Shown in pieces: positions 21,778 through 44,641 of a DNA stretch of 57,384 nucleotides (within the stretch, counting starts at the first letter, position 1; every line of letters starts with the position of its first letter). The notes under the pieces are model-generated. The model had not been told where the DNA came from and did no database searches. It worked only from the letters and a program-made list of their open reading frames with translations. The stretch covers positions 1-57,384 of the forward strand of contig JAKBMG010000064.1 in NCBI GenBank assembly GCA_021831685.1. Direction: 5' to 3'. The position numbers and the translations under genes are program-made. Source of the DNA: Bacteroidota bacterium (GTDB lineage Bacteria; Bacteroidota; Ignavibacteria; Ignavibacteriales; Ignavibacteriaceae).

Positions 21778-23262
21778 ATGACTAAAACTGCACTTTTAAT
21801 AGACATCACTTCCATTCAGAAATATGTTTTTTTAAGCAATAAGCTTAAAGAAAATCTTGGCGCATCATTTCTTATCTCGGATTTATATAATTCAATGGTC
21901 TCCAAAAACGATGCTGTCAAAGATATTCCGTTGAAAATAAATGGTGAATATGATGGTTACATGGGAGGTGGTAATGCTCTACTATTTTTTAATAGTAAAG
22001 TTGATGCAGAGGAATTTGTCATTGAATGGACAAAATCGTTATTGGTTCTTGCACCCGGTGTAACTGTTGCAACCGCTATTAATGAATGGAATGAGGGTGA
22101 AGACAAATTTACAAATTCCCGTGATGCTTTATTCGATAAATTAAGAGAAAACAAATCTAGATTTATTTCCCAAACTATTATCCCACGACACGGTATATCG
22201 GCAGAATGCAAGTCGGATGGCTATTCGATGGACGTTTGGAGCAACTCTGAAGGAGACTATATTTCTGCTTCAACAAATGCAAAAATATGTGCGTTCCCCG
22301 CCTCGAAAAAGAAAACAGATGAAGATTTTAACGAACCATTAGGAACTAATTTCTACTTTACTGATTTACTCGAAGATCTTGGTCAGAGCAAGGGAAGCGA
22401 AAACCATATTGCTATAGTCCATATTGATGGCAATTCTATGGGAGACAGGTTTAAAAAATTAAACTCACTTGAAGCTACTAAGCAATTATCGAAAGATGTT
22501 GAAAAAGCTGTTAAGGAATCTTTCAAAATACTTTTGAAAGCAATTGTCTTTGAACTTCAGGATGAAAAAAAGAAAGGTTATTTGTCCATCAAGAAAGAAG
22601 GTGAATTGCCAATTCGACCGATAATTATGGGCGGAGATGATATCACTTTTGCCTGCGATGGCAGAATGGGTATTTATTATGCCAAAATCTTTATGGAAGC
22701 TTTTCAAAACCAGGAAGACAATAATGGGAATAATCTTAAATTATCAAGTTGTGCCGGTATTGCTGTTATAAAAACAAAATATCCATTCTATAAAGGATAC
22801 CAGCTTGCAGAAGAATTATGCGCTAATGCGAAAAGCAAAAGAAGGGAAATGGGTAACAACGGTTCCTGGCTTGATTTCCATATTGCCTATGGAGGTTTTT
22901 CCGGCTCTCTTAAAGAAATCAGAGATATTCATTATAATGCTGCATTGGGAAGTCTGATTTATCGACCATATAAAATTCTGGATTCATCGGAAAATTCTTT
23001 TGAAACATTTATTTCTAATGCTAAAGAGTTAAGTAAAAAATGGCCAAATAATAAGCTTAAGGAACTTAGAGAAGTATTAACCCTAGGCAATGATGCAGCT
23101 AAAATTTTTGTTAGCGAAATGGAAGCACGAGGACTTGAATTGCCTGACATTGACACGAAAGGTTATAATAAGATACTATTTAAAAACCGGCTTACTCTAT
23201 ATTTTGATATGCTTGAGCTTCTTGAATACTATCCCAAATATGAATTGGAGGATGCAAATTGA
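21778..23262 (+). CDS. cas10: Cas10, HD-less, with GGDD cyclase motif
   Basis: Large subunit of a type III effector, 494 aa, much shorter than usual Cas10 (700-1000 aa). It starts directly with a palm domain (LLIDITSIQKYVFLSNKL); no N-terminal HD nuclease is present. IVHIDGNSMGDRF marks the second palm's first strand, and GGDD (residues 285-288, MGGDDITFACDG) is the cyclic-oligoadenylate synthase motif. So it should make signalling rings from ATP on target RNA binding but not cut DNA. It overlaps the next gene by 4 nt and heads an eight-gene operon. Confidence 0.92.
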   Translation: MTKTALLIDITSIQKYVFLSNKLKENLGASFLISDLYNSMVSKNDAVKDIPLKINGEYDGYMGGGNALLFFNSKVDAEEFVIEWTKSLLVLAPGVTVATAINEWNEGEDKFTNSRDALFDKLRENKSRFISQTIIPRHGISAECKSDGYSMDVWSNSEGDYISASTNAKICAFPASKKKTDEDFNEPLGTNFYFTDLLEDLGQSKGSENHIAIVHIDGNSMGDRFKKLNSLEATKQLSKDVEKAVKESFKILLKAIVFELQDEKKKGYLSIKKEGELPIRPIIMGGDDITFACDGRMGIYYAKIFMEAFQNQEDNNGNNLKLSSCAGIAVIKTKYPFYKGYQLAEELCANAKSKRREMGNNGSWLDFHIAYGGFSGSLKEIRDIHYNAALGSLIYRPYKILDSSENSFETFISNAKELSKKWPNNKLKELREVLTLGNDAAKIFVSEMEARGLELPDIDTKGYNKILFKNRLTLYFDMLELLEYYPKYELEDAN

Positions 23263-23942
23263 AAACAATTAAAATGACTATTGAATTACTTTCTGATACT
23301 CTATCCGGTTCCGGCGAAGGATTTGGAGCCGTGATTGATACGGATGTCCAATATGATGAATGTGGAATACCCTATATTTCTTCAAAAAGAATTAAAGGTT
23401 CTCTTCGTAATTCGCTAAATGATTTGCTCATAATGCCTGCGGTTTGGAAAGCTTTGGATTTTAAAGACGATAAAGGAAAAGATAAAATTCTAGATAAATA
23501 TTTCGGCGAAAAAGGGGCAGTTCAATCTTCACCCTTTAGTATTTCCAATTTTGTTATTGAAGATTATGAGTTGGTTAAGCCGTGGTTCGCTTTTCTTAAA
23601 ACTAAGTACTCAAGTATTTTTTCCAATGAAATAATATTATCGTCATTTACAAACATCCGCCGACAGACAAGCGTTGATGATGAAGGAATAGCTCTCGAGC
23701 ATAGTCTGAGAACATCGCGTGTCGTAAATAAGAAATTAAAATTTGTAGCCGATATAACATTTGAAAATGAAGATTTAGAAATTGAAAAATATCTTTCCCT
23801 TGCGTGTGCTAATCTTAAAAGAATAGGTTTAAAACGTAATAGGGGTCTCGGCGAGATTCGCTGCTCGCTTGAAGGAAATTTGATTCCTGCTGCTATCAGT
23901 AATTTTGAAGAAGTTTTGGAGGGTGCAAATGAAAAAAATTAA
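23259..23942 (+). CDS. Csm3-like RAMP (Cas7 family)
   Basis: Backbone-type RAMP of 227 aa, TTG start inside the cas10 stop (TTGA overlap). Signatures: MTIELLSDTLSGSGEGFGA, GIPYISSKRIKGSLRNSL and the glycine-rich GLKRNRGLGEIRCSLEG near the C-terminus. In the family, such subunits line the crRNA and cut target RNA every 6 nt through an Asp in a loop; the Asp-rich segment DTDVQYDE near residue 30 could supply it. Confidence 0.87.
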   Translation: MKTIKMTIELLSDTLSGSGEGFGAVIDTDVQYDECGIPYISSKRIKGSLRNSLNDLLIMPAVWKALDFKDDKGKDKILDKYFGEKGAVQSSPFSISNFVIEDYELVKPWFAFLKTKYSSIFSNEIILSSFTNIRRQTSVDDEGIALEHSLRTSRVVNKKLKFVADITFENEDLEIEKYLSLACANLKRIGLKRNRGLGEIRCSLEGNLIPAAISNFEEVLEGANEKN

Positions 23943-25464
23943 GTATCAGATCAGAACACTTGACCCGATAATTATTTCTTCTGAATCGGGCAATCAATTT
24001 ATGGTCCCAACAAAAGACTATGTCCCCGGAATAAATATTCTCGGCGCTCTCGCAGCAAAATACATCCAACAAAATAACCTTGGTAACTACTTTAATCAGC
24101 AAAAGCCGGATGACGCTAATTTTTTGGATTGGTTTATTAACGGCAAAGTTAATTTTTCTAACGCTTATAAGACCGATAAAATTGACGGCAATGAGTATGT
24201 AACTTATCCTCTTCCATTTTCAATTCAACATCTTAAAAATGATGAAAGCAAAATCTTTGATTTGTTATATGAAGAATCATCTGAACAAACTAAAGCTTTC
24301 AACGGTTTTGGATTATTAAAGGATTTAAAATTATATAAAACAAAAATTAATAAGTCCACCGATCCGCACCACGAAAGAGATTATACGACCGGAGCTCCAA
24401 AACAAAATGTCTTTTTTAACTATGAATCTATTGATGCAAACCAAACTTTTGAAGGGACTATATACGGTGATGATAATTGTATCGAAGAATTTTATAAACA
24501 ATTTTCTGATTTACTTCAACTAAGAATCGGCAGATCTAAAACTTCAGAATATGGCAAAATACAATTAAGTCTAAGTCAGCCGGAAAACCAATCAGAAGAT
24601 AATATTGTACCGAATGAAGATGAAACAATTTCATTAACATTTTTTTCTAATGTAATTCTGTATGATAAAAACGGTTCTACTTCATGTAGCATGCAAACTC
24701 TTGAAGAATATCTTAAAGAAAAAATTTCGGGTATTAGCAAAATTAAAAAGGCGTTTCTCAGAACCGAAGAAATTGAAAACTACGTTTCAGTTTGGAAATT
24801 GAAAAAACCATCTGAAGTTTCATTTCAAGCAGGCTCTTGTTTGCTTCTTAAAGTTAAAGCAAGCGATATTGAAACAATGAAAAAATTGCAATCAGACGGA
24901 ATCGGCGAAAGAAGGAACGAAGGTTTTGGCCAAATTACCTTTGGACTACAAAGAATGCGAATTACAAAAGCTGAATTTGAAAAAGAAGTATCTAAAAGTC
25001 CAACATTACCAGTTCCGGAATTAGTTAAGAAAAAAACTTTCAAAATTGTCGAAGAATATCTCAAAAAAATATCTGCTGTTGAAGCGCTTAAAATTGTAAG
25101 CTCTAATTCAAAAGGGTTGAACAAGAAAATATCTTCTTCACAAATCAGTAAGCTTGAGGGGATCTGTAGAATTAGCGATTCTGATAAAACCTTTAAGAAA
25201 AAAATTGATAGCTTAAGGAAAATATCAAAAGAACAACTTATCAGCTGCCGTTTTGATAAAAGCAATCTGTTCGATTTTCTGACAAAAGAAAACATCCTAA
25301 ATAACTCCGATATTAGAAATGAAATAACAAAAATGGGAACGCTATTTACTGACGTTGGAATTGAGTTAACTAAGATTGAAGAAATTACTCCCCAACTATA
25401 CAGAGCATATTATTTAATCTTGTTTGCTGCTATGCGTAAAGCAATTAAAGGAGGACAAAAATAA
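23929..25464 (+). CDS. csx10: Csx10-like RAMP (type III-D Cas5-like) with helical tail
   Basis: About 511 aa from ATG 23929 (MKKIKYQIRTLDPI); the in-frame ATG 24 nt earlier lacks a good site, while GGAGG lies before 23929. Overlaps the previous gene by 14 nt. SSESGNQFMVPTKDYVPG at the N-terminus and DGIGERRNEGFGQITFG near residue 345 are typical of Csx10, the crRNA 5-prime-handle-binding subunit of subtype III-D. After about residue 365 the protein changes to roughly 145 residues of charged helices. These could stand in for the small Cas11 subunit, for which no separate gene is seen. Confidence 0.85.
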   Translation: MKKIKYQIRTLDPIIISSESGNQFMVPTKDYVPGINILGALAAKYIQQNNLGNYFNQQKPDDANFLDWFINGKVNFSNAYKTDKIDGNEYVTYPLPFSIQHLKNDESKIFDLLYEESSEQTKAFNGFGLLKDLKLYKTKINKSTDPHHERDYTTGAPKQNVFFNYESIDANQTFEGTIYGDDNCIEEFYKQFSDLLQLRIGRSKTSEYGKIQLSLSQPENQSEDNIVPNEDETISLTFFSNVILYDKNGSTSCSMQTLEEYLKEKISGISKIKKAFLRTEEIENYVSVWKLKKPSEVSFQAGSCLLLKVKASDIETMKKLQSDGIGERRNEGFGQITFGLQRMRITKAEFEKEVSKSPTLPVPELVKKKTFKIVEEYLKKISAVEALKIVSSNSKGLNKKISSSQISKLEGICRISDSDKTFKKKIDSLRKISKEQLISCRFDKSNLFDFLTKENILNNSDIRNEITKMGTLFTDVGIELTKIEEITPQLYRAYYLILFAAMRKAIKGGQK

Positions 25465-26921
25465 TGAATGACGGTAAATTAGTTCTCGAAGGCAAAATAG
25501 AATTACTTTCTCCCCTTCATATCGGTAGCGGCGAGAATGATTCGACCGACCTTGATGTAATAATGGATAACGATGGCAATCCTTTTATTACTTTTACCTC
25601 CTTTATCGGAGCGCTTCAACATCATCTTAGGAAGAATTATACTACTGACGATAGTGAGATGAAAAAACTTTTTGGGTTTACTGAAAATGATATTTCTCAA
25701 GGAAGCACAATCATTGGAACTGACCTGTTTTTATTCAAAGATACCAAAAGTGTTATCGCAACAAGAGATGGTATTAGAATAGATTTAAAAACCGGTATAG
25801 TAGCTGATAAAGCTAAATATGATTATCAAATTGTTGATAAAGGCGCTAAATTTTCTTTCACTTTAGAAGCTGCTTATTCTTCTCTTCCAGACAAAATCTC
25901 TAAACAAACTTTGATTCAATATTCTTCAACAATTTTAGAAATGCTTAAGGTAAATGATGTCGATGATGAACAGTCTGGTTTGAGAATTGGCGCAAAGACA
26001 AATAATGGGCTTGGTAAAATTCAGCTTATTGATGAAAAGCTTTATGATTATGATTTTACTGATTACAAAAATGTTATTTTATGGTTGAAAGGAAATCTAG
26101 AGGGAAATCAAGAAAAACCTGCCCGTATTGATATCAAAAATGTTATTCCGTTGCAAAAAAATGAGATCGATTTAATTATTGACGCTTATCTTGATCTTAA
26201 AACTTCTCTCATTCAACGTTCTTATAACGATGATCCTTCAATGCCGGATGCTTCCCACATCCAATCGGAAGAAATTCTAATTAAACCGGACGGTAAGGAA
26301 GAAGTGATAAAAAATAATATTTTAACCGGATCGGGAACCAAGGGCGCTATTACCGCAAGAGCCAAAAGAATTCTTAATACCATTTGGACAAATGATGAGC
26401 AGTCTAAACTCAAATTTATTGATAAGCTATTTGGTTATGTTAATGATCCAAAAGATGCAACAGACAAGCGGGAGGACAAAAAGCCTAAAAAAGCAAAGCT
26501 GCAAATTGAAGAACGTGAACTTCCTGCTTATGTTGCTGAATTACAATCACGCATTAAAATAGACCGCTTCACGGGAGGAACAATCAACGGAGCTTTATTT
26601 GATTCTATGCCGTTGTTTAATACCAAACAAGTTGCTCAGGAAATTGACTTAAAGAAGAAATATACCAGAATAACTATACGTGTAAGAGATTGTTCAGAAG
26701 CTGAAGCTGGTTTAATGCTTCTTGTTCTTAAAGATTTGTGGACAGGTGACCTTCCAGTTGGTGGTGAAAAGGGAATCGGCAGAGGTGTTTTTAATGGCGA
26801 TTCTGCATCAATAAAATTTCAGAACAAAACAATAATGCTGAAACAAGGACTTAATAACTTGTCTGAGTTACAAAAATATGTTGATGCTTTAGTAAAAGAA
26901 GCTGGAGGTAAAAAATGTTGA
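25464..26921 (+). CDS. Double RAMP protein (Cas7-like fusion)
   Basis: RAMP of 485 aa with two Cas7-like units. The first begins GKIELLSPLHIGSGENDSTD and ends near SGLRIGAKTNNGLGKIQL. The second has NNILTGSGTKGAITARAKRI, the acidic-basic IKIDRFTGGTINGALFDS (Csm3-type hinge), and the glycine-rich LPVGGEKGIGRGVFNG. Such fused Cas7 subunits are typical of III-D. Start overlaps the csx10 stop; end overlaps csx19 by 7 nt. Confidence 0.87.
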   Translation: MNDGKLVLEGKIELLSPLHIGSGENDSTDLDVIMDNDGNPFITFTSFIGALQHHLRKNYTTDDSEMKKLFGFTENDISQGSTIIGTDLFLFKDTKSVIATRDGIRIDLKTGIVADKAKYDYQIVDKGAKFSFTLEAAYSSLPDKISKQTLIQYSSTILEMLKVNDVDDEQSGLRIGAKTNNGLGKIQLIDEKLYDYDFTDYKNVILWLKGNLEGNQEKPARIDIKNVIPLQKNEIDLIIDAYLDLKTSLIQRSYNDDPSMPDASHIQSEEILIKPDGKEEVIKNNILTGSGTKGAITARAKRILNTIWTNDEQSKLKFIDKLFGYVNDPKDATDKREDKKPKKAKLQIEERELPAYVAELQSRIKIDRFTGGTINGALFDSMPLFNTKQVAQEIDLKKKYTRITIRVRDCSEAEAGLMLLVLKDLWTGDLPVGGEKGIGRGVFNGDSASIKFQNKTIMLKQGLNNLSELQKYVDALVKEAGGKKC

Positions 26922-27580
26922 GTAATACGAAATCCCGCATTGCGGGAAATAATGAAAACACAATAAACGGACTTGAGTTAAAAGAAATATCTTCTCAAGC
27001 ATTTCCTGTAAGCGCATTTGATGAATTGGATAATAAACAACTGAGTACAATACTTGATGAAATAAATAAAAAAACTCCCCTCTCCTTTATAAGGAAAGGG
27101 GCTGGGGTCGCTTTTGTTGTAGCTTATCTCGATTACAAAGTTCTCATCGGCAAATATACAAACGGCTCTTTTCCTTTTTTCAATAACGAACAAATTGAAC
27201 CCAAATTTATTCAGCGAATAAGAATATTCAATCAAAATGAAGAACTTATGCTGTGGAGAAGCGAGGGGAAATTAAAGGGAAGGTACCGCAAAGATAATGA
27301 TGGGAATAAAATTGATGTCGTTGATAACGATCAGGTTTTATTCGGTACAAAAGCTGAAGAAATTAACGGTTATACAAAACTAACTGAAGAACGGGGAACG
27401 GAGATCATTATTCCATTTAAAGATATAATTCTTGATGGAAACAAGAAAGAAGATAGAATAAAAATTAAAACAAGAAATTATATCGGCTTCAACGAAATTC
27501 ATCAAGCTACTTATATTGACAGCAGGTTCGTTGAATTTACTTTTGTTAAAGAAAATAATCCAACCGGAGGAATAAAATGA
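26915..27580 (+). CDS. csx19: Csx19-like type III-D accessory subunit, carrying repeat insertions
   Basis: Protein of 221 aa. FNQNEELMLWRSEGKLKGRY, DNDQVLFGTKAEEINGYTKL and the EERGTEIIIPF segment match the Csx19 pattern that goes with Csx10 in subtype III-D; its function is unknown. GGAGG precedes ATG 26915. Two palindromic repeats lie inside the frame: CCCGCA/TGCGGG at 26934-26946, and a CCCCTCTCC-type hairpin at 27077-27101 that adds the peptide TPLSFIRKGAG. Both keep the frame open. Overlaps both neighbours by a few bases. Confidence 0.75.
   Translation: MLSNTKSRIAGNNENTINGLELKEISSQAFPVSAFDELDNKQLSTILDEINKKTPLSFIRKGAGVAFVVAYLDYKVLIGKYTNGSFPFFNNEQIEPKFIQRIRIFNQNEELMLWRSEGKLKGRYRKDNDGNKIDVVDNDQVLFGTKAEEINGYTKLTEERGTEIIIPFKDIILDGNKKEDRIKIKTRNYIGFNEIHQATYIDSRFVEFTFVKENNPTGGIK
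27077..27101. repeat. REP-like hairpin inserted in csx19
   Basis: CCCCTCTCCTT and AAGGAAAGGGG form an 11-bp stem with one mismatch and a 3-nt loop, followed by CTGGGGTCG. This resembles the CCCCTCTCC ... GGAGAGGGGCTGGGGTGAGG repeats scattered in many bacterial genomes. It sits in frame within a coding sequence, which is unusual. Confidence 0.6.
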
Positions 27581-29670
27581 GTAAAAGAGATATTATAAAG
27601 CAATCAACTTCAAAAGAAGATTGGCAAGAAAAACTTATAAAAAATAAAAGTAAAATAATTAGTGACAATGCTTCAGTAATAGCTGAAGATATTGCTTCAA
27701 ATATTAATTCCCCAATCCAAGATATGAGACAATTAGAGAAATCTAATATCTTGAAAGGTTTTATTGATGTGGATATTAATAATTTTTATACAACTCAAGT
27801 TTCGCCAATTGAGGATAAAGAAAACAGAGAAGCTTTTGCACCATATAACTTTATTCCGTTAAATGATAAAATTGTCCTTTCTGATTTTGATATAAAGAAG
27901 GAAAAGTTTCAGTTAGATAAATATCATCTTAACAAAAGAACAGGTTATATTACTCTTGATATCGAAACTAAATCACCGGTTTACATCAGAGATACACTTA
28001 CAGAAGCTCAATTAAAAGTGATAAACTCCTTTGATGAAAAAATTGAAAAGGCAAAAAAAAATAAAGACCGGAATCTTGAAGATCTCAAGATTCAAAAAGC
28101 AGAAAAGCTTTGGGAATATTCTGATTTCTTCTCTCCTGTAAACAGTAAATTAAGAATACCCGGAAGCACAAAACGTGGTCTTGTTAAAAATATTATTGAG
28201 ATTGTTTCTTATGGCAAGTTCAATAATTTTGAAGATAAACGTCTTTATTTTAGAAGCTTTGATTCAAGTAATTTGCAGAAGGAATATGAGAGCTATGGTT
28301 TAAATCATTACCGCACGTATCAAATGCTTTGTGGTATTCTTAAAAAAGAAGATTTGGATTATTTCCTTTATGAAACCGGGACACCAGGTCAAATTTCTAA
28401 TGTAAATGCTCAAACTGAAATTACCAGTACTGGGGTAACAAATTTTAACCCCAAGAAAATGAAAGCTTATCCAATTAATTCAAAAAAATATTATATCGTA
28501 GTAACTGGTTATGTTGGTAGAGGAGCTAAACCCAATCATTGGATCGTAAACTTTATGAATCCCAGCTCAAATAGAATACCTGTAAGTAAAAAAGACATTG
28601 AAGATTATAAAGGTGATGAAAATAGAGCAGAAAAAGTAATTGATATTTTAAAAGAAGCTGACTCAAAATACGGAATACCTTGTTTCTATACGAAATGGAC
28701 TGATGATGATGGAGACAGCAGAATTTATTTTGGACATACCGGAATGTTCAGAGTTCCATATAAAAAAACCATCGGCGAGCATATACCAGTTGAATTGAAA
28801 GACGAAATGTATATTGATATTACTGAAGCCATCTTTGGCAACGAAAAGACTTTTGCAGGCAGAATATTCTTTGAGGATGCATTTTGCAATGAACCGGATG
28901 CATCCAAAGTTTTACTTGGTGCAAAACATCCGAAAATTTTATCTGGTCCAAAGCCGACAACGTTCCAACATTATTTGACTCAGCCGGAAGAAGAAATAAA
29001 TAAATTAAAACATTACAATCCTGATACTGAAGATGACAACAAATTATCAGCTATTCGAGGTTATAAACAATACTGGCATAAAATAGGCAATGACTGGATT
29101 AATGCAAATCAAAACATAGATGATAAAGACAAAAAACAATACACAAAAATCAATCCGGTTAAACCCGGTACAACCTTTACCGGTCGTATCCGTTTCGAAA
29201 ATCTTTCCGATGTTGAACTTGGCGTATTGCTATTTGCTTTAGACCTGCCTTATGAAAAGGATGAAAAAGGTGATGTAATCTCAGAGTGCTGCCATAAAAT
29301 CGGTATGGGTAAGCCTCTCGGTCTTGGTTCTATTCATATTACACCAACTCTTCATCTCTCAAATAGGGAAAATCGTTACACAAAACTTAATGAAGAATGG
29401 TCCACAGATTTACCTGAATCAACTGACGAGCCTAAGACAATTACCGATTTTAAAAATGCTTTTGCAACTCATATTCTAAATGCATTAAATGGAGATACTA
29501 ATCAGCATACAAGTGATGAGCTTTGGAAGGTTGATAGGTTAAACGAATTAAAAACCATGTTGGACTTTAAAAATAGACCGGCTAATTCCAAAACAAGATA
29601 TATGAAAATTCAACCGACTAATGAGTTTAGAAACAGACCTGTTCTTCCCAAACCAAGCGATGTTAAATGA
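27577..29670 (+). CDS. Large RAMP protein (TIGR03986-like)
   Basis: RAMP of 697 aa, starting by a 4-nt overlap with csx19. FAPYNFIPLNDKIVL near residue 88 and TGYITLDIETKSPVYIRDT then RIPGSTKRGLVKNIIEIVSYG are the usual start of the TIGR03986 RAMPs. The second unit has GTTFTGRIRFENLSDVELGVLLFALDL and the glycine-rich CHKIGMGKPLGLGSIHI near residue 575. Probably the large Cas7-type subunit at the far end of the III-D complex. Ends in an ATGA overlap with the HD hydrolase gene, coupling their translation. Confidence 0.85.
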   Translation: MSKRDIIKQSTSKEDWQEKLIKNKSKIISDNASVIAEDIASNINSPIQDMRQLEKSNILKGFIDVDINNFYTTQVSPIEDKENREAFAPYNFIPLNDKIVLSDFDIKKEKFQLDKYHLNKRTGYITLDIETKSPVYIRDTLTEAQLKVINSFDEKIEKAKKNKDRNLEDLKIQKAEKLWEYSDFFSPVNSKLRIPGSTKRGLVKNIIEIVSYGKFNNFEDKRLYFRSFDSSNLQKEYESYGLNHYRTYQMLCGILKKEDLDYFLYETGTPGQISNVNAQTEITSTGVTNFNPKKMKAYPINSKKYYIVVTGYVGRGAKPNHWIVNFMNPSSNRIPVSKKDIEDYKGDENRAEKVIDILKEADSKYGIPCFYTKWTDDDGDSRIYFGHTGMFRVPYKKTIGEHIPVELKDEMYIDITEAIFGNEKTFAGRIFFEDAFCNEPDASKVLLGAKHPKILSGPKPTTFQHYLTQPEEEINKLKHYNPDTEDDNKLSAIRGYKQYWHKIGNDWINANQNIDDKDKKQYTKINPVKPGTTFTGRIRFENLSDVELGVLLFALDLPYEKDEKGDVISECCHKIGMGKPLGLGSIHITPTLHLSNRENRYTKLNEEWSTDLPESTDEPKTITDFKNAFATHILNALNGDTNQHTSDELWKVDRLNELKTMLDFKNRPANSKTRYMKIQPTNEFRNRPVLPKPSDVK

Positions 29671-31411: not shown

Positions 31412-31447
31412 TATCAAATAATAAAATATAACCGAAGCAATAATAAA

Positions 31448-32407
31448 ATGAATAATTTACCTGAATTAGTTTTGTATAAATTTCTCTTTAATCTTGAAGC
31501 CCTGCAAGACATGCTTCTACCTGAATATAAGGGTTCTACCATAAGAGGTGCATTCGGCTGGGAATTTTTTGATTCAGTTGGTCCACTAAAACCTATTTTT
31601 GATTATGTTTTTATTTCACCAGCTCCAAAAGACCTTCCAAAGGATTTAAAAGGAACAGAAAATGTTCCTCACCCCATCATTATCCGCCCTCCGTTATTCA
31701 ATAATAGGGAAATTAAAAATGGCGACATATTCAATATTGAATTAATAGTTATAGGCAATACTTATAACTTTATTCCTTTTTTTATTGATACGATTAATAA
31801 AATGGGGAAAACCGGTTTAACAACCAAAGGATACAATTTTAGGTTAATGAATATTTATAATTTAAATGCCAATAATTCCCAAAGGTTAGCATACGAAGAT
31901 CACAAAGGGATATTAAAAACAGATTTTGCTCAAATTACTTCAGAGCAGATTATTAATAATAGAAATCTGAATCATAAAAAATTAGTATTGAGATTTAAAA
32001 CACCCTTCTTGATGCAAAAATTGGTTGAACCTGGTAAAAAGAGTAAGGAGATTAAATGGTTAAGGGATATTGATTTAATCACGCCTCAACTATTAGCAGA
32101 TTATCTTGAACGTAGAAATAGGCATCTTGCATGGCTTTATTGCGATTCAAAATTCGATAAACAAAAATTCGACGCATCGGATATAAAAATTACGAAAACT
32201 AAGCTGTACGAATTTAAGTCGATCAGAAAAAAAAGTGAAGATAATAATAATAAAGAAAAATATGAAAATTATTACGGCTTAGTCGGCGATATTGTTTTGG
32301 AAGGCAACCTTTCCAGCATCCTTCCTCTAATTTATGTCGGCGAGCAAATTCATCTCGGTAAAAAAACAAGTTTTGGATTCGGCAAGTATAGCATTATAAC
32401 TATGTAA
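31448..32407 (+). CDS. cas6: Cas6 pre-crRNA endoribonuclease
   Basis: RAMP ribonuclease of 319 aa that cuts pre-crRNA within the repeat to leave an 8-nt 5-prime tag (here ATTGAAAC). Family signs: LPEYKGSTIRGAFGWEFF at the N-terminus, NKMGKTGLTTKGYNFRL midway, and the glycine-rich IYVGEQIHLGKKTSFGFG at the C-terminus. It is a separate gene here, whereas many RT-Cas1 loci fuse Cas6 to RT-Cas1. Confidence 0.9.
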   Translation: MNNLPELVLYKFLFNLEALQDMLLPEYKGSTIRGAFGWEFFDSVGPLKPIFDYVFISPAPKDLPKDLKGTENVPHPIIIRPPLFNNREIKNGDIFNIELIVIGNTYNFIPFFIDTINKMGKTGLTTKGYNFRLMNIYNLNANNSQRLAYEDHKGILKTDFAQITSEQIINNRNLNHKKLVLRFKTPFLMQKLVEPGKKSKEIKWLRDIDLITPQLLADYLERRNRHLAWLYCDSKFDKQKFDASDIKITKTKLYEFKSIRKKSEDNNNKEKYENYYGLVGDIVLEGNLSSILPLIYVGEQIHLGKKTSFGFGKYSIITM

Positions 32408-32422
32408 CAATTAATTATCATT

Positions 32423-33724: not shown

Positions 33725-33733
33725 TATTATTAA

Positions 33734-34012
33734 ATGCACTTTTTTATATGCTACGATATCTCCTCCGATAAAAAAAGAATTAAAGTCTCCAAATTATTAG
33801 AGGATTTTGGCGTTCGCGTTCAATACAGCGTTTTTGAGTGCGAGCTGACTAAAAAAGAGCTTAAAGAATTAAAGCCTAAGCTTTCGGAAATAATAAATGG
33901 AAAAACAGACTCTGTTTTGTTCCTTTTGCAATGTGAAAATTGTACAAATAAAAAAGAATATTTAGGCGTAGAGCTTTCTATCAAAAGAATAAATATTCTT
34001 ACTGTTAAATAA
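33734..34012 (+). CDS. cas2: Cas2
   Basis: Structural partner of Cas1 in spacer integration, 92 aa. FFICYDISSDKKRIKVSKLLEDFG and RVQYSVFECELT are the standard Cas2 strands, with the conserved early Asp8. It precedes RT-cas1 by one base, so the two are co-translated. Confidence 0.95.
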   Translation: MHFFICYDISSDKKRIKVSKLLEDFGVRVQYSVFECELTKKELKELKPKLSEIINGKTDSVLFLLQCENCTNKKEYLGVELSIKRINILTVK

Positions 34013-34013
34013 T

Positions 34014-36293
34014 ATGGTTTCCTTTGAACAAATCTTTTCTACAAGCAGCTTATTAACAGCATGGGAAAGTGTTAAACAAAAAAATAAAAGCGGCGGGATC
34101 GATAACGTAACTATTTGTGATTTTCAAAAAGATATCGAACCAAATATAAAAAAACTACAAGCCGAACTTTATGAATATAAATATATTCCCGAACCGTACA
34201 AAAGATTTTATATACAGAAAGATGTGTCCGGGCTTAGACCTCTTTCTTTACTAACTATAAAAGATAAAGTAATTCAGCAATGCTTCTTTAATTATTTTAA
34301 CTTTAAAATTGATAAAACATTTGCAGATACCAGCTACGCTTATCGCGCAAATAAAAGCCATACTAAGGCAATAAACAGAATACAAGATTTCATCAACAGA
34401 GGCTGCAAATGGTTCTGCCCGGTTGATATTGATAATTATTTCGATTCAATAAACAGAAAAATTCTTATTGAAAAATGCAGCAATATCTTTCAAAACGAAA
34501 AAATAATTAAACTTATTGAAATGTGGACTTATATTGGCTCAATACAAAATGGTAAATATGTAGATTCCGGCAAGGGCATTCCCCAGGGCGGCGTAATTTC
34601 ACCCATGTTGTCCAATATTTACCTTAATGATTACGACAAAGCAATGAAAACCAAATCCTACGATAACGTTAGATATGCAGATAATATTTTACTAATCTCA
34701 AAAGAAAAAGATAAATTGCTTGAAACCTTGGGCTATACCGTAAGTTATTTAAAAGATAATCTGGGGTTATCCTTAAACAAAATTGAAAAAAATGCAGTCA
34801 ATATTACTGAACCTTTTACCTTTTGCGGCATTCAATTTAACAAAGGCAAAAAGGTTATCGATCCGCATAAATATGACCGGATGATTCAAGATTTTGAACA
34901 AATACTTAAAAAAGGAACCCTTATAGAAATTTCTTCAAAAATAAGTCAACACTTCGATGGTATTAACCGGTACTACTTTCCCTTCGATACAAAAGAACAA
35001 ATAGGGCAATTGCAAGAAAAGTTTTTTAGTCTGATTTCTTCAAAATTAAAAACAGAATTACAGCAAAAGATTATTCCTGCAATATCTGAAGCAAAAAACA
35101 TTTTAAGACAAATTACATTTATCGGAAGTCAAAATAATGTGCCTAAAGAATTTTTTGTTAATAATATTATTAACCGCATAAAAGAAGATAAATTTGAGCC
35201 TGCTAAAACAGCCCTTATAAACCGTGATGTTTCAAAAGCAATAAATATTAAAAGGCGACAATATCAAAAATTCTGGTATGATGCACTGGATATTAACATC
35301 CCATCTCTAAATTCCCAGATAGGTAAATCCGGATATAAAATAATTATCCGGAGAGAAGGAAAAATTAAAAATGAAATTTCTGCCGATAAAATACAGAACA
35401 TTCTAATTTCGGCAAAGGGTGTTACTATTTCCTCCGATGCCGTAAGATTGTGCGCTGAAAAAAATATTAGAATAAACTATTTCGATGAGCTCGGTAAGCC
35501 CTATGCGAGTATGGTCTCATTAATAATGCCCGTGTTATCAATAGGTAAACAGCAAGTTTCTGCTTTAATGGATGATAAAGGTAAAATAATAATTAAATCT
35601 CTAATTTCGGCTAAAGTAAAAAATCAGTTGAGTGCAGTAAAATATTTTATAAAAAATAAAAAACTAGATGAAAATGATGAAAAGTTAATTTCAGCCGAAA
35701 TTGAACGGATGAATAATTATATAGTTGAGATCAAATCTTTAAGCCTAAAACAGGATATCGAAGAACTTAAAGGAAAAGTATTTGGATTTGAAGGTCTGTC
35801 TGCTTCCTCTTATTGGAATGCGCTTAAGGTTTTAATTCCCGCTGGATATAGCTTTGAAAAAAGAGAGCACCAGTATTCAAAAGACATTGTAAACATGATG
35901 CTGAACTATTCCTATGGAATTCTCTACACACGGGTTTTAAATGCCGTAATTTCAAACGGCTTGGATCCAACTATCAGCTTTCTGCATTCAGGGCAGAAGG
36001 GTAAGCCCACTCTCGTTTTTGATTTAATAGAGCAATTTAGAGCCCCGGTTGCTGATAGATCAGTTGTTGCCATGCTTACTAAAAATGTTAAAGTCTCCGT
36101 AAAGAACAATCTTCTTTCCGATGACACAAAAAATAAGCTTGCAAATAAAGTCTTATTTAAATTGAACAACGAATTTTATTATAAAGGAAAGCTGACAAGC
36201 TTTAATGAAATAATTTATTTGCAGGTGAAAAATTTGGCAAATTACCTAAAAGGCGAAACAAAAATTTTTAAGCCCTTTTTATCCAAATGGTAA
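34014..36293 (+). CDS. cas1: Reverse transcriptase-Cas1 fusion with altered YADN motif
   Basis: Protein of 759 aa. Residues 1-330 are a group II-intron-like reverse transcriptase: LRPLSLLTIKDKVIQ, CPVDIDNYFDSI (Asp138), GKGIPQGGVISPMLSNIYL, and YADN at 221-224 where YADD is expected. From about residue 400 comes Cas1 with all catalytic residues: Glu593 (GFEGLSASSYW), His658 (SFLHSGQKG) and Asp670 (LVFDLIEQFR). RT-Cas1 proteins can acquire spacers from RNA. The Asp-to-Asn change at the second position of the polymerase motif may weaken cDNA synthesis, although the first Asp is kept. No Cas6 domain. Confidence 0.93.
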   Translation: MVSFEQIFSTSSLLTAWESVKQKNKSGGIDNVTICDFQKDIEPNIKKLQAELYEYKYIPEPYKRFYIQKDVSGLRPLSLLTIKDKVIQQCFFNYFNFKIDKTFADTSYAYRANKSHTKAINRIQDFINRGCKWFCPVDIDNYFDSINRKILIEKCSNIFQNEKIIKLIEMWTYIGSIQNGKYVDSGKGIPQGGVISPMLSNIYLNDYDKAMKTKSYDNVRYADNILLISKEKDKLLETLGYTVSYLKDNLGLSLNKIEKNAVNITEPFTFCGIQFNKGKKVIDPHKYDRMIQDFEQILKKGTLIEISSKISQHFDGINRYYFPFDTKEQIGQLQEKFFSLISSKLKTELQQKIIPAISEAKNILRQITFIGSQNNVPKEFFVNNIINRIKEDKFEPAKTALINRDVSKAINIKRRQYQKFWYDALDINIPSLNSQIGKSGYKIIIRREGKIKNEISADKIQNILISAKGVTISSDAVRLCAEKNIRINYFDELGKPYASMVSLIMPVLSIGKQQVSALMDDKGKIIIKSLISAKVKNQLSAVKYFIKNKKLDENDEKLISAEIERMNNYIVEIKSLSLKQDIEELKGKVFGFEGLSASSYWNALKVLIPAGYSFEKREHQYSKDIVNMMLNYSYGILYTRVLNAVISNGLDPTISFLHSGQKGKPTLVFDLIEQFRAPVADRSVVAMLTKNVKVSVKNNLLSDDTKNKLANKVLFKLNNEFYYKGKLTSFNEIIYLQVKNLANYLKGETKIFKPFLSKW

Positions 36294-36889: not shown

Positions 36890-39800
36890 ATTATCTATTG
36901 AAGCCTTGATTGAAAGGATTGAAACCAATCAGAGCAACTGCCTCGCGGAAATGTCTAACTATATCATTATCTATTGAAGCCTTGATTGAAAGGATTGAAA
37001 CTATTAAATCTACTAATAAACAAGTTAAGCACATTGCTCTTATTGTATTATCTATTGAAGCCTTGATTGAAAGGATTGAAACATATGAGGATCTCCATAT
37101 TAAATAAAGATGTCTTTCCAATTATCTATTGAAGCCTTGATTGAAAGGATTGAAACAAAGAGCATCTTCTTTCTATCAACAAGTTGGCCATTGATTATCT
37201 ATTGAAGCCTTGATTGAAAGGATTGAAACTTAGCACTAATGTTATTGTAAAAAATAAACTCATTTTTCCATTATCTATTGAAGCCTTGATTGAAAGGATT
37301 GAAACTACCACCTTGATCGCGAGATAGTTATCTTTCGAATCAACATTATCTATTGAAGCCTTGATTGAAAGGATTGAAACTTGCTACAGGCATTACTTTC
37401 CACATGAATCACAAATGGGGATTATCTATTGAAGCCTTGATTGAAAGGATTGAAACAAAAAACTCCACTATTGCCATGACATCCCCTTTGTCGATTATCT
37501 ATTGAAGCCTTGATTGAAAGGATTGAAACGAATAAATTTCAATTATCGCCGAAGTTATCAGGAATTATCTATTGAAGCCTTGATTGAAAGGATTGAAACG
37601 CATCGCGCTTAAAGCGTCCGGTTCAAATTGGCCGTTATTATCTATTGAAGCCTTGATTGAAAGGATTGAAACAATTTATACTCTCTTGGCCATTCAAACC
37701 AATCTGCTTGTAATTATCTATTGAAGCCTTGATTGAAAGGATTGAAACACGAGGTGGTGATTATATAGATGTTATGTACTTCTTCAGGGTTATTATCTAT
37801 TGAAGCCTTGATTGAAAGGATTGAAACGACGTAATTGGTGCCGTGAGATTAATTGATCCATTTACAGATTATCTATTGAAGCCTTGATTGAAAGGATTGA
37901 AACGAAACTTTCCTTCTCCATTCCTGCAATAGCATTCTCCGAATTATCTATTGAAGCCTTGATTGAAAGGATTGAAACTTTCAGTTTTTAGATTGTATTG
38001 GCCGTAAGTGGCGGGAATTATCTATTGAAGCCTTGATTGAAAGGATTGAAACAGTTTCCTTTGGCATCAAAATCAGCCAGATTGTGATATTATCTATTGA
38101 AGCCTTGATTGAAAGGATTGAAACTCTTGGATTGATTTTTTCTGATCGCAGATCCTCAACAAAGATTATCTATTGAAGCCTTGATTGAAAGGATTGAAAC
38201 GAATATTCACCGTTCTCTTTAATCAGAAAGAATGTGCCATATTATCTATTGAAGCCTTGATTGAAAGGATTGAAACGAAATGGAAAACTTGCTAATTGCC
38301 ACCCATTCCCAGCAGTATTATCTATTGAAGCCTTGATTGAAAGGATTGAAACGTTAGCGGCTAATCTAAACAACTTGAGCCAGGGCTTAGATTATCTATT
38401 GAAGCCTTGATTGAAAGGATTGAAACAATTGATGACGGTAAAGAGCTTGTTGCCGATAGCTATTATTATCTATTGAAGCCTTGATTGAAAGGATTGAAAC
38501 GACATGTTTACCATCTCTTCATGCGATTCTGTTACATTATCTATTGAAGCCTTGATTGAAAGGATTGAAACTAATTTTATACATAACCATTTGGCTTATT
38601 ATGCCAAACAGGAAGATTATCTATTGAAGCCTTGATTGAAAGGATTGAAACTTTTGCTTTACTTTTATCACTGAAATTACCATCTTTAATTATCTATTGA
38701 AGCCTTGATTGAAAGGATTGAAACACTAAAAACAATATTTTATATATCGTTTTCATGGTACATTATCTATTGAAGCCTTGATTGAAAGGATTGAAACAAA
38801 AGACCAGAAAATACAATATACTGCAAATATGCATTATCTATTGAAGCCTTGATTGAAAGGATTGAAACAAGAGTTTTGTTGGGAGAAAATAATTTATATA
38901 TACAAATACATTATCTATTGAAGCCTTGATTGAAAGGATTGAAACATTCCTTCAAGGACGATGAGGCAAAAATCTTGCCTTGATATTATTATCTATTGAA
39001 GCCTTGATTGAAAGGATTGAAACATTACATTAGGGCCATCTTGCACTGGAGCGGAATTATTATCTATTGAAGCCTTGATTGAAAGGATTGAAACAAAAGT
39101 GCACCACGCACCATGCTGTCCCATCTTCACCATTATCTATTGAAGCCTTGATTGAAAGGATTGAAACAACAGCTCCCAATCTGCAATCGGCGCAAAGTGC
39201 ATGCCATTATCTATTGAAGCCTTGATTGAAAGGATTGAAACATTTGTGAGATGCACCCATGTTTTTCCCTTGTCTTTTATTATCTATTGAAGCCTTGATT
39301 GAAAGGATTGAAACGCTGTTGTGATAGGAGGCTGGGAGATAGTTTTGGGAACATTATCTATTGAAGCCTTGATTGAAAGGATTGAAACTGCCGGAAATAA
39401 ACCGAAGAATTGAGGGGTTCGCTTTAGCATTATCTATTGAAGCCTTGATTGAAAGGATTGAAACTTTTTAGTTTGATAGTAAATCTATACTAATTTAGGT
39501 ATTATCTATTGAAGCCTTGATTGAAAGGATTGAAACGTAAACCGCCTCTTCGGCCGATTTACTCCTCCACATTAATTATCTATTGAAGCCTTGATTGAAA
39601 GGATTGAAACGATACCCACTTTGGGTCATTAACCACATTATTTAATTATCTATTGAAGCCTTGATTGAAAGGATTGAAACGAATAATTGTCTCCATAATT
39701 TTTCTGTTTTCTGGTATTATCTATTGAAGCCTTGATTGAAAGGATTGAAACCTTTCAGGTGTTGAAGACGATTAGCAAGAATCTTTTATTATCTATTGAA

Positions 39801-41338
39801 GCCTTGATTGAAAGGATTGAAACGTCTAGCTCTAGTTTGAAGGCATTCTAGTTCTCCCTAAGTGCAATTATCTATTGAAGCCTTGATTGAAAGGATTGAA
39901 ACAATAAATAGGAGCAAAGAATTTTTTGCATACATGGAATTATCTATTGAAGCCTTGATTGAAAGGATTGAAACAACTGTTGAATCTCAAGTCTACCGGC
40001 ACGCTTCCATATTATCTATTGAAGCCTTGATTGAAAGGATTGAAACAAGTAATTACATTAAATACTGACATAGAATCCATGAAAGAACTCCCAATTATCT
40101 ATTGAAGCCTTGATTGAAAGGATTGAAACATTTTTTATCCAACTCTTCCTGAAAAACAGTTCTCATTTCATTATCTATTGAAGCCTTGATTGAAAGGATT
40201 GAAACAATCAAAGTTTTTTTTTATTCTTAACCTCACGTTTAATATTATCTATTGAAGCCTTGATTGAAAGGATTGAAACGATGTGTTTGAATGTAGATAT
40301 CTTTCAAATATTTGATTATTATCTATTGAAGCCTTGATTGAAAGGATTGAAACGATTTATTACCGCCTCTAATATCAAACTCCCTGAAAAATTATCTATT
40401 GAAGCCTTGATTGAAAGGATTGAAACTTTATCTTCCACTCAGGTTTATTCACCGTGGCGGTTGGATTATCTATTGAAGCCTTGATTGAAAGGATTGAAAC
40501 AAAAAGAGCATCTTCTTTCTATCAACAAGTTGGCCATATTATCTATTGAAGCCTTGATTGAAAGGATTGAAACGATTCCGAAGATTTTTACCGTGTATGT
40601 TTTACCGGGAACATTATCTATTGAAGCCTTGATTGAAAGGATTGAAACTGCAAGATCTAAAGGGTGTATGCCGGGGCCGTATATAGATTATCTATTGAAG
40701 CCTTGATTGAAAGGATTGAAACAGTCTGATATTTGATACTTGCTCATCAGTTAACTCACATCTCACTTGATAATAAAACATTATCTATTGAAGCCTTGAT
40801 TGAAAGGATTGAAACCAAACAACTTGGAAGCAAGCATTATTCCAAACACCACATATTATCTATTGAAGCCTTGATTGAAAGGATTGAAACCCCTTTGAAC
40901 ACCGTCAAGCTTTCGATTCGTCTCGCCGGTATTATCTATTGAAGCCTTGATTGAAAGGATTGAAACAGCAAGCCCTCAATGCACAAGGTTCAGTTGAACT
41001 TCCGGGATTATCTATTGAAGCCTTGATTGAAAGGATTGAAACCGATTCGGATTGGCGTAAGTCACGGCGGCGGAAGCTTATTATCTATTGAAGCCTTGAT
41101 TGAAAGGATTGAAACAAAAAATCCGACGTAGGCAGAGACCTTCACTGTCTTGCGAATTATCTATTGAAGCCTTGATTGAAAGGATTGAAACTCACAACCA
41201 ACGAATTAAAGTTTGGGTCGGTTGCAATTATTATCTATTGAAGCCTTGATTGAAAGGATTGAAACGATCCCAATATATTGAAGCGGACATCTCGGCGGAA
41301 ATCGTGATTATCTATTGAAGCCTTGATTGAAAGGATTG
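36890..41338 (+). CRISPR. CRISPR array, 60 repeats and 59 spacers
   Basis: The repeat is 36 bp, beginning ATTATCTATTGAAGCC and ending AAAGGATTGAAAC. I count 60 copies from 36890; the first 59 appear identical, and the last (41307-41338) loses its final four bases. Spacers are 34-47 nt apart from one of 57 nt (40723-40779). Transcription is plus-strand: the 3-prime ATTGAAAC end gives the type III crRNA tag, and cas6 and RT-cas1 lie upstream. The spacers at 37157-37193 and 40501-40537 come from the same protospacer, offset by 2 nt. Short ORFs read through the repeats (peptide LSIEALIERIET) are artefacts. Confidence 0.99.
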
Positions 41339-41342
41339 TTGA

Positions 41343-41515: not shown

Positions 41516-43969
41516 ATGAAGGAAAATTTATTAATACAAAATGTTTTCGCAATTAAGATTAAATCCTATTATTTGCCCATTAATGAAAATGATAAACTTG
41601 ATTTGAATGAGAGATATCTGCGGCAGCTTTCATGGCTAAAATCAATATTTATTAAAGATGATTTTCGCTTTGTATATGAGCTGCGAATTATTTATTTACC
41701 GGAGAGAGTAGAGCAAAACGCCGGGAAAATCGAATTTTATTTGATAATTAAAGCTGCCGGCATTGATAAGCAAACATTCTATGTATATTGTAATGATTTG
41801 TTTAACCTAGCCGTTATTTCTTTCCCTGAATATGATTTTGAAATGATTGTAAATGAACAATTGCAACATATATTATATCCGTTCATTGTTAATTTTGTAT
41901 TTGAGTTAAAGCGAACTATTGATAATATAAACCTGGATACGCTTGGCGACAGCAAAGTAAATAGAATTGGCTTTAATGATAAACTCGATGAAAAGAATAA
42001 CGGCATTTCAGAATCCAATATTTTTAATGTAACTCCATATCCCATCACAAAAAATCCGGCAAATACTTTTTACAAGCAATTAGTTTCATCAAAATCTAAT
42101 TATATATTCTCAATTATACTTCGTCCTGTTAATTTAAACGACGACTTTTTAAAATTTATAAATAAACAGATACTTATTTGTGAAAGATTTTCTCAATTAA
42201 ACTTAAGCATTTCATCTGATGTTAACAGTCTTTTCCCGGCTCTTAAGGAAAAAGCGAAATTTTATCAGAGCTTTCAGAATCACATTCTAAATTCATTAAA
42301 AGAAATACCTTTAACAATTAATATCTATATGGGCTCAAATAATGTTTTACAGGATATACTCGCAAATACTTTTATTTCATTTTTAACCGGAGAAAATTCA
42401 AAAATAACTATTAAGCGTCCTATTAGTAATTCAAATTACATTAATTTAAAAATGAAAATTGTCGGTGCTAAAAATATTTTTAATTTACCTTCTGTTAAGG
42501 ATCCTTGTAATGCTGAACCCAAAGGTAAGGATGATTACCAGAGTATCAATAATCTTTTGGAACATACGATTGGTTTAGAAGATGCTGCTTCTATATTTTC
42601 ATTCCCTCTGTTGGATGCTGAAAATTTGGAAGGAATAGAGACAAAAAGATCAAGACAAATACCAACTTTTGAAAATTTTCCCTCTGAAGGAGTTGAAGTA
42701 GGTGTTAATGTTTTTGGCAATAAAGAAATTCATATTAAATTGAAGGAAGACGATAGAAGACGACATTTTTATATCGTGGGTCAAACTGGAACAGGTAAAA
42801 CAAATTTATTAAAAAATATGATTCTCTCCGATATAAGACAGGACAAAGGTTTGTGTGTAATTGATCCGCACGGGGATTTATTTAATGAATTACTTAATTC
42901 AATGCCTGCTTCACGAATTAAAGATGTTGTATTAATTGACCCTACGGATGTTAAGTATCCTGTTGGAATAAATCTTCTAGAATATAAAACCGAAGAACAG
43001 CGGTATTTTATTGCTCAGGAAATGGTTAATATATTAAAAACACTTATGATAGATGAGTTCGGGGTTTCCTCAATTCCTAACTATGCCGGGCCCATATTTT
43101 TTCAACATGTAAAAATGAACTTACTACTTGTTATGTCTGATCCGCAAAAAATGGGTTCCTTATTCGATTTTTATAATGTCTTTCAAATTAACGACTATTG
43201 GAAGAATTGGCTGCCGTTAAAAATTTCCGACCCACACCTTGAAAACTGGGTGACATCTGTTTTACCAAATACCGATTATCAAAGACAAGGTAGCGATGGG
43301 GCATCACTCGGCGCTTATATAAGCAGTAAGTTTGAACAATTTCTTTTCGATCCGCTTTTAAGAAATATCTTTTCTCAAAAACAATCTACTATCGATTTTA
43401 AAGAGGTTATGGATTCAGGTAAAATCCTGTTGGTCAATTTGTCAAAAGGCGCACTTTCACAAATTAATTCAAGGTTTTTGGGCTTGGTAATTATGGCTAA
43501 ATTACAGTCTGAGGCTCTACAAAGAATTAAAATTGATAAGTCTTTGCGAAAAGATTTTTTTGTTTATATTGATGAATTCCAAAGCATTACAACAGAAAAC
43601 TTTGTAACTCTTCTTTCTGAAGGCAGAAAATTTAGAATTAGTTTAATCCTTGCAAATCAGTTCATTTCTCAAATCCCGAAAAATATATTAGAAGCTATAT
43701 TCGGCAACACCGGTACAATAGCATCATTTAGAGTAGGAGTAGAGGATGCAGAAATCCTGGGAAAAAAATTCTATCCATTTCTTTCGAAGATGGATCTGAT
43801 AAACTTACCCAATTGGAATGCTTATATGTCAACGCTTAATAAAGGCATACCTGTTCCTCCATTTAGTATTAAGACAGAATTTGAGACTATTTGTATTAAT
43901 AAGAATATTGTTGAAAAAATTTATTCGAATTCCAGAAATCTATGTTCAATAAAGAATCAAAATGAGTAA
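41516..43969 (+). CDS. HerA/TraC-like DNA-pumping ATPase (type IV secretion DNA-binding family)
   Basis: Protein of 817 aa. The N-terminal about 390 residues are not recognised. The ATPase has Walker A GQTGTGKT (422-429), IDPHGDLFNELLNSMP typical of TraD/HerA-type pumps, Walker B VYIDEFQS (Asp686-Glu687), and the SLILANQF motif III with a possible arginine finger at FRVGVEDAE. Related proteins move DNA through hexameric rings. No relaxase or conjugation gene is near, so it is probably a chromosomal or defence-associated member rather than a conjugative coupling protein. Its last bases overlap the HD-hydrolase remnant. Confidence 0.75.
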   Translation: MKENLLIQNVFAIKIKSYYLPINENDKLDLNERYLRQLSWLKSIFIKDDFRFVYELRIIYLPERVEQNAGKIEFYLIIKAAGIDKQTFYVYCNDLFNLAVISFPEYDFEMIVNEQLQHILYPFIVNFVFELKRTIDNINLDTLGDSKVNRIGFNDKLDEKNNGISESNIFNVTPYPITKNPANTFYKQLVSSKSNYIFSIILRPVNLNDDFLKFINKQILICERFSQLNLSISSDVNSLFPALKEKAKFYQSFQNHILNSLKEIPLTINIYMGSNNVLQDILANTFISFLTGENSKITIKRPISNSNYINLKMKIVGAKNIFNLPSVKDPCNAEPKGKDDYQSINNLLEHTIGLEDAASIFSFPLLDAENLEGIETKRSRQIPTFENFPSEGVEVGVNVFGNKEIHIKLKEDDRRRHFYIVGQTGTGKTNLLKNMILSDIRQDKGLCVIDPHGDLFNELLNSMPASRIKDVVLIDPTDVKYPVGINLLEYKTEEQRYFIAQEMVNILKTLMIDEFGVSSIPNYAGPIFFQHVKMNLLLVMSDPQKMGSLFDFYNVFQINDYWKNWLPLKISDPHLENWVTSVLPNTDYQRQGSDGASLGAYISSKFEQFLFDPLLRNIFSQKQSTIDFKEVMDSGKILLVNLSKGALSQINSRFLGLVIMAKLQSEALQRIKIDKSLRKDFFVYIDEFQSITTENFVTLLSEGRKFRISLILANQFISQIPKNILEAIFGNTGTIASFRVGVEDAEILGKKFYPFLSKMDLINLPNWNAYMSTLNKGIPVPPFSIKTEFETICINKNIVEKIYSNSRNLCSIKNQNE

Positions 43970-44120
43970 AATTGAAACTGCATTAAAAATTGCACTTATT
44001 GCACATAGGAATAAAGTTGAATCCATCATACGTCTTCCATATTCCATTGCGGCTTGCCGCACCGTCTTAAGTATGACGATAAGAGACTTTATTAATTCAG
44101 TGGTATTAATTAAATTATAA
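43962..44120 (+). pseudogene. Remnant of a second SpoT-like HD hydrolase
   Basis: ATG 43962 overlaps the ATPase stop by 8 nt and opens a 52-codon frame. Its start MSKIETALKIALIAHRNKV has the pattern of the first helix of small alarmone hydrolases; compare YSIEKAIAIALEGHKDQKD in the intact gene at 29667. After about residue 19 the similarity ends: a short palindromic repeat (TGCGG/CCGCA, 44048-44061) and unrelated sequence follow, so the HD residues are lost. The gene was therefore coupled to the ATPase and later destroyed by an insertion or deletion. Homology rests on a short segment. Confidence 0.55.
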
Positions 44121-44122
44121 GT

Positions 44123-44641
44123 ATGAATATGAAATATCCAAGAGAATTGTCAAGGGGAAACAATAATGTTGTTATTGCCATATCTAAAACCGAAGTAGGA
44201 AAGATATTTACACCGGATACTCGGGTAGAAGTCACGGTTGAGGCGAGGAATATGCAATACGCAAATAATATCAACGGATTAGTCGTTAAATTCATTAGAA
44301 TTGATATCGATGACACTAATCAAATATTGGTAATGGAACGGCTTAATATACTCGAACCACGGACTCTTGAGAAAGAAATACGTGAGACTATATATTCTGT
44401 CTTTGTTGATGAACTCGCTCATTTACATAAAAATGGATTCTGTCATAGAGATATCAAACGACCTTCAGGCTTTGGGGGACGCCCATACGATAATGTAATA
44501 CTTACTGAATCCGGAATAAGACTAATCGATGTGGGTATATCTGCCATTAAAGATTTGGCAGGAAATTCTCTATTCGACAACTACATAAAGTCAGAAATGA
44601 AAGAGGTCGAGGAATTCTACGAGTATTTTGTTAACCAATAA
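44123..44641 (+). CDS. Compact protein kinase-like protein
   Basis: Protein of 172 aa with a minimal eukaryotic-type kinase layout: Lys27 (VGKIF) and Glu40 in the N-lobe, hinge ILVMERLNIL, catalytic loop CHRDIKRP (108-110), Asn124, and Asp136 in LIDVG (DVG instead of DFG). The HRD-to-Asn distance is longer than usual because of an SGFGGRPYD insertion. The N-lobe is short and the C-lobe ends soon after the metal Asp, so much of the normal C-lobe is missing. It is either a reduced active kinase or a relative of lipopolysaccharide/antibiotic kinases. Convergent with the following minus-strand operon, overlapping it by 11 nt. Confidence 0.65.
   Translation: MNMKYPRELSRGNNNVVIAISKTEVGKIFTPDTRVEVTVEARNMQYANNINGLVVKFIRIDIDDTNQILVMERLNILEPRTLEKEIRETIYSVFVDELAHLHKNGFCHRDIKRPSGFGGRPYDNVILTESGIRLIDVGISAIKDLAGNSLFDNYIKSEMKEVEEFYEYFVNQ

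Follow-up and report, generated by a model that had tools for sequence, protein, structure and literature searches.

Two spacers sharing 35 nt at a 2-nt offset in the array of a type III-D-like RT-Cas1 CRISPR locus

The CRISPR-Cas operon, its RT-Cas1 fusion and the array

The stretch of DNA analysed here (the window, 57,384 nt) is one entire contig of a host assembly that comprises 4.52 Mb in 221 contigs. Its type III-D-like CRISPR-Cas operon closes with Cas2 and an RT-Cas1 fusion, and a 59-spacer array lies downstream (Table 1). The RT-Cas1, Cas2, Cas6 and effector genes are all open frames. Among the effector subunits, Csx19 scores above its cut-off (TIGR03984, E 8.5e-39); the Csx10 match (TIGR02674, E 1.5e-22) reaches 80.3 bits, below the curated cut-off of 177.3. 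Taken together, the Cas10, Csx10 and Csx19 markers would place the system in subtype III-D, and we term it III-D-like. The profile matches also point to an adaptation module in which an RT domain is fused to Cas1 and Cas2 adjoins the fusion. Searched against Rfam, the window gave no match at gathering scores.

Table 1. Coordinates of the locus features within the window.
Feature	Coordinates	Strand	Details
Csx20-like protein and Csx3 ring-nuclease domain	18096-19682	+	upstream of Cas10
CRISPR-Cas operon, type III-D-like	21778-36293		
Cas10	21778..23262	+	PF22335 above cut-off (palm2 domain); GGDD motif by eye in translation
Type III-D-like effector subunits	23259..29670	+	profile matches: RAMP protein, Csx10-like, Csx7-like, Csx19, TIGR03986 RAMP
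CARF-RelA protein and the small protein before it	29667-31351	+	CARF-type domain (PF09623; Csx14/Csm6-like) fused to RelA/SpoT synthetase domain (PF04607)
Cas6	31448..32407	+	PF10040, E 1.6e-11
Cas2	33734..34012	+	PF09827, E 2.9e-23
RT-Cas1 fusion	34014..36293	+	PF00078 + PF01867, one 759-aa protein; group II intron-like RT, YADN not YADD
CRISPR array	36890..41342	+	60 repeats of 36 nt (ATTATCTATTGAAGCCTTGATTGAAAGGATTGAAAC), 59 spacers, leader left
Spacer 4	37157..37193	+	37 nt: shared 35-mer, then TG at 3' end
Spacer 49	40501..40537	+	37 nt: AA at 5' end, then shared 35-mer
Spacer 52	40723-40779	+	57 nt
Last repeat	41307		degenerate, 4 mismatches
TrwB/HerA-type ATPase	41516-44641	+	ATPase gene begins ~170 nt past array end; interval listed for it and the ORF after it

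Several further genes at the locus deserve mention. The operon includes a protein in which a CARF-type domain is fused to an alarmone synthetase domain; the small protein encoded directly before it is without a Pfam match, and resembles the (p)ppApp hydrolase 7smg (E 1.6e-32) as well as part of SpoT. Within a type III operon, this pair looks like a signal-activated alarmone synthetase together with its own antidote, as judged from the domain matches. Upstream of Cas10 there are a Csx20-like protein (44.2 bits, below the curated cut-off of 70) and a Csx3 ring-nuclease domain with an additional C-terminal part. Given the Csx20-like and Csx3 matches, the operon may encode several enzymes that handle cyclic oligoadenylates. 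On the other side of the array, the ORF that comes after the TrwB/HerA-type ATPase has a weak protein-kinase match (26.4 bits versus a cut-off of 31.7).

The canonical catalytic motif of reverse transcriptases is YxDD. The window RT-Cas1 departs from it and has YADN at residue 224, a motif found in 7 of 13 aligned RT-Cas1 proteins (the window's included), the remaining six having [YF]ADD. Motif A reads D[IV]DN in all seven YADN proteins and also in one YADD protein. The Cas1 residues E593, H658 and D670 are kept in 13/13 of the aligned proteins. A scan of the genome_contigs set gave 4 loci, two of them equal in length to contigs already included in the comparison; the four relatives of the fusion that have named records are labelled Melioribacter, Chlorobiota, Ignavibacteriales and Ignavibacteriaceae. 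The host genome itself encodes a second RT-Cas1 fusion on another contig (C16, L033:4909-8388), which is 1159 aa long, has YADD and is extended by an extra region at the N-terminus; the 11-kb contig that encodes it yielded no array.

The first 59 repeats of the array are perfect and the degenerate one is the last. Since RT-Cas1 adjoins the left end and the degenerate repeat sits at the right end, we place the leader on the left. Spacer lengths range from 34 to 57 nt, spacer 52 being the longest and the other 58 measuring 34-47 nt. A 33-nt piece of the repeat had no further match in the genome with up to 3 mismatches allowed. The same genome has a second array (L035:51-2248), with a 30-nt repeat and 33 spacers, on contig C154, where another Cas1 match lies; no stretch of 13 nt is common to a spacer of this array and one of the window array.

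The spacer 4 / spacer 49 pair

We compared all 59 spacers with one another. As the first-pass annotation had it, spacers 4 and 49 share exactly 35 identical bases in the same orientation and are offset by 2 nt, the shared stretch beginning at base 1 of spacer 4 and at base 3 of spacer 49. The longest stretch common to any other pair is 10 nt (1711 spacer pairs, both orientations), so that chance is excluded as the origin of the 35-nt match. The ranks assigned to the two spacers, fourth and forty-ninth from the leader, are likewise correct with the leader on the side of RT-Cas1. Forty-four other spacers lie between them, and the spacers that flank them (3 and 48 on one side, 5 and 50 on the other) are unrelated. 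The pair had been read as two separate acquisitions and not as a duplication within the array, and this reading held up: the ends of the two spacers differ, their neighbours are unrelated, and the extra bases (TG and AA) differ from those of the repeat. Overlapping spacers with different ends and without duplicated neighbours form the pattern that marks re-acquisition.

That both captures chose the same strand had also been stressed. The shared orientation is real; it carries little weight, since two events agree in strand with even odds and type III immunity selects for one strand. Type III crRNAs function only when complementary to a transcript. A strand bias among Thermus type III spacers has been ascribed to selection and not to capture (excerpt of PMC7515739), and for the Marinomonas RT-Cas1 system the orientation of spacers is described as only partly tied to the source transcript (excerpt of PMC5576922). 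We examined the strand of the window's spacers using a codon model built from 45 window genes, which called 2149 of 2700 known sense pieces correctly. With this model, 35 of the 59 spacers were antisense-like and 24 sense-like; a mixture estimate gave 54% antisense, 26% sense and 20% noncoding, with overlapping intervals. Capture of RNA through the predicted RT-Cas1 is possible.

Other arrays served as controls. In seven further arrays adjacent to RT-Cas1 genes (16, 27, 13, 13, 20, 4 and 2 spacers; 95 in total), no pair shares 15 nt or more, and the same is true of 165 spacers in 12 arrays that adjoin other Cas1 genes, many of these arrays being truncated where their locus ends. These counts exclude loci that repeat the window array or an array already counted, a second listing of one array with a variant repeat, and one doubtful 3-spacer array; no overlap appeared for any of those excluded. 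The controls give no sign that offset pairs are a general habit of RT-Cas1 systems, and with 95 + 165 spacers the sample is too small for the pair to be called rare.

Source searches, capture odds and spacer starts

The origin of the shared sequence was sought in host, virus and plasmid sequences. With up to 3 mismatches, the 35-mer occurs in its own 4.52-Mb assembly at two places, both of them in the array; its absence from the rest of the assembly argues against a host transcript in that assembly as the source. An order-wide search at the same tolerance matched 1 of 164 genomes, namely its own, and the 163 others held no source. An exact 28-mer had no match in genome_contigs. In IMG/VR there were no matches to an exact 24-mer of the pair, to any of three patterns left free at every third base, or to the left 20-mer of the pair. 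The right 20-mer matched two contigs with identical reading frames, in which 26 of the 39 bases of the union of both spacers agree, 21 of them in one run. We took these two contigs to be chance matches, though, judged by eye, each of them has an open frame that contains the run. Beyond the pair, spacer 48 (exact 24-mer) and spacer 1 (exact 23-mer) were searched in IMG/VR and gave no matches either.

Searches of phage and plasmid records were similarly negative. Spacer 49 drew 27 phage records, the best 20 of which all had E values of 2 or worse, and 4 plasmid records with E 5; the whole array drew 13 phage records (best E 1) and 16 plasmid records (best E 0.3). Two phage candidates were set aside as chance. 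One is a Streptococcus phage terminase gene which aligns with 30 of the 37 bases of spacer 49 at 83% identity, the longest among the matches listed. The other is a gut phage (two records) whose terminase gene aligns over 21 bases at 95% identity, on the strand opposite to the Streptococcus match. Spacers of RT-linked Arthrospira systems are likewise reported to have almost no traceable source, and the sources of RT-linked spacers have largely gone untraced (as far as the available part of PMC5513706 goes).

We then asked how often uniform capture would yield a same-strand pair with starts no more than 2 nt apart, using a collision model in which the size of the source and the number of spacers per source were varied. 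The probability is 0.11 when a single 40-kb genome supplies all 59 spacers and 0.045 when that genome measures 100 kb; with 20 spacers drawn from 40 kb it is 0.011, and with all 59 drawn from 8 kb it is 0.42. These values imply that much of the array stems from sources that are few or small, that the site is favoured, or that luck was involved. A pair within 2 nt is 7-16% as probable as one within 27 nt when the source measures at least 40 kb, and likewise for 10-20 spacers from 4-8 kb; the figure is 42% when all 59 spacers come from 8 kb.

The first two bases of the spacers are biased, as an end signature left by capture or integration would be. AA or GA begins 26 of the 59, versus a background of 14.5% inside spacers (P 4e-8), a bias that was noticed post hoc; only 9 of 20000 random draws matched the count reached by the two commonest starts. 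Such starts are spread over the array, with 13 in the newest 30 spacers and 13 in the oldest 29. The preference helps explain two captures 2 nt apart, because both starts are AA within the run AAAAAGAG. The other RT-Cas1 arrays, as printed, do not show an AA/GA start bias. Two of them, L051 and L052, have AA as the last two bases of 8/13 and 9/20 spacers, respectively, in the printed orientation, which may be reversed; these end biases may have another cause, e.g. a misplaced repeat border.

Readings of the pair and what it means for RT-Cas1 systems

We consider it very probable that RT-Cas1/Cas2 captured one short stretch of a foreign element on two independent occasions, giving rise to spacers 4 and 49. 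An outside sequence captured twice accounts best for the pair because the adjacent spacers show no duplication and the repeat does not supply the additional bases at the ends; this reading requires no extra premise. The source would be a mobile element that was encountered at least twice and remained unchanged over 35 nt. The AA/GA start preference of this array would have raised the odds of two nearby starts in the run, and the shared orientation would be due to chance or to selection for crRNAs that can base-pair with the transcript. How literally the 2-nt shift should be taken is uncertain: since RT-Cas1 enzymes can add noncoded bases to ends, the offset need not reflect a displacement along the source.

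One variant of the double capture follows from this point. The same core, of 35 nt or less, would have been templated both times, with AA and TG added by a terminal transferase activity of RT-Cas1. Most new spacers of the RT-Cas1 systems of Marinomonas mediterranea, F. saccharivorans and Vv have at least two noncoded bases at the spacer-repeat junctions, the M. mediterranea enzyme preferring A (excerpt of PMC11014452), and the AA/GA bias of first bases in the present array would agree with such additions. However, the preference described applies to the 3' end of captured RNA, where A comes first and then G. A 5' AA on the top strand would correspond to a 3'-terminal TT in a bottom-strand RNA, TG is not a favoured tail, and across the 59 spacers no base bias at P<0.05 is seen in the final eight positions. 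We regard this variant as unlikely, albeit worth keeping in mind.

Another form of double capture supposes a strongly favoured site, with a defined transcript end or a structured RNA of the invader feeding RT-Cas1. The presence of RT-Cas1 and the tight offset, which is mildly suggestive under the uniform model, speak for it. On the other hand, the 39-nt union, folded by itself and outside its source context, is no more stable than its shuffles, whichever of the two strands is taken (z 0.92 and 0.55), so the secondary structure that had been proposed for the source is not seen there. The spacers captured by M. mediterranea RT-Cas1 are moreover uniform over the source gene (according to the accessible part of PMC11014452), and the case consists of a single pair with no source and an RT whose motif is YADN. 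Such a site is a doubtful explanation, if one with some claim to attention. The initial proposal of either a long-lived recurring invader or a strongly preferred capture site thus went further than one pair allows; with no source found, the alternatives are inseparable. More specifically, RT-Cas1 proteins of the YADN group might repeatedly bank RNA fragments with nearly fixed ends from a preferred transcript, the ends being short noncoded or slipped additions. We think this improbable; if true, pairs such as 4/49 would be a natural, readable trace of RNA-end capture.

Re-capture from the array, in which spacer 4 would have been made from spacer 49 (from array DNA, a precursor or a mature crRNA) with no invader at all, is very improbable. 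Copied in this way, spacer 4 should continue past the core with the repeat bases AT, but it has TG; in the reverse direction, from spacer 4 to spacer 49, the repeat bases AC should precede the core, but spacer 49 has AA. Only noncoded bases would rescue the idea. Type III crRNAs begin within the repeat, about 10 nt before the position at which spacer 4 starts. What can be said for re-capture is that a source was not found elsewhere and that RNA uptake is possible for RT-Cas1 systems (excerpts of PMC11014452 and PMC5576922). Duplication or recombination of an array segment with later mutation of the ends, or an artefact of assembly, is hardly credible: duplication of spacers through recombination is known in CRISPR arrays and leaves an identical spacer, usually with copied neighbours, whereas here the flanking spacers differ, two separate 2-nt changes would have to fall precisely at spacer-repeat borders, and the k-mers of the assembly should separate the copies because the exact match extends over only 35 nt with differing bases on both sides.

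Two captures of one site have precedents. In T. thermophilus, 4 bases separate the start of a spacer in strain HB27c from that of a partly matching type III spacer in HB8, and the authors concluded that it was acquired independently from an unknown element (excerpt of PMC7515739). As in that case, we find type III array spacers that match in part and have different ends; unlike it, where two strains without an RT are involved, the present pair lies in one array of an RT-Cas1 system. Among 1567 spacers of 26 Thermus genomes, seven shared pairs were considered to be independently acquired on the basis of differing array types and/or partial overlap, and the authors mention similar cases in other microbes (available portion of PMC6452258). 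We take these pairs to be the same phenomenon, which here occurs within a single array and with RT-Cas1. Offset pairs from independent captures are thus already known in Thermus, and the pair taken alone is ordinary. The excerpts available from PMC6452263, PMC8473940, PMC9048733 and PMC6013744 contain nothing that decides between the readings of the pair, and a literature search for "partially overlapping protospacers" gave no match under that phrase. Marinomonas mediterranea and Arthrospira likewise have an RT-linked Cas1 in a type III setting; their systems are III-B (excerpts of PMC11014452, PMC5576922 and PMC5513706), whereas that of the window is III-D-like and its RT has the motif YADN.

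What the pair adds is a single natural array, in a type III system with RT-Cas1, that records the same site twice, with 44 spacers in between. Because the sources of RT-linked spacers are largely untraced, a site captured twice is a good probe. If its source were found in a metagenome from the habitat, both true ends of the captured stretch would become visible, and hence whether noncoded bases are added to spacers in nature.
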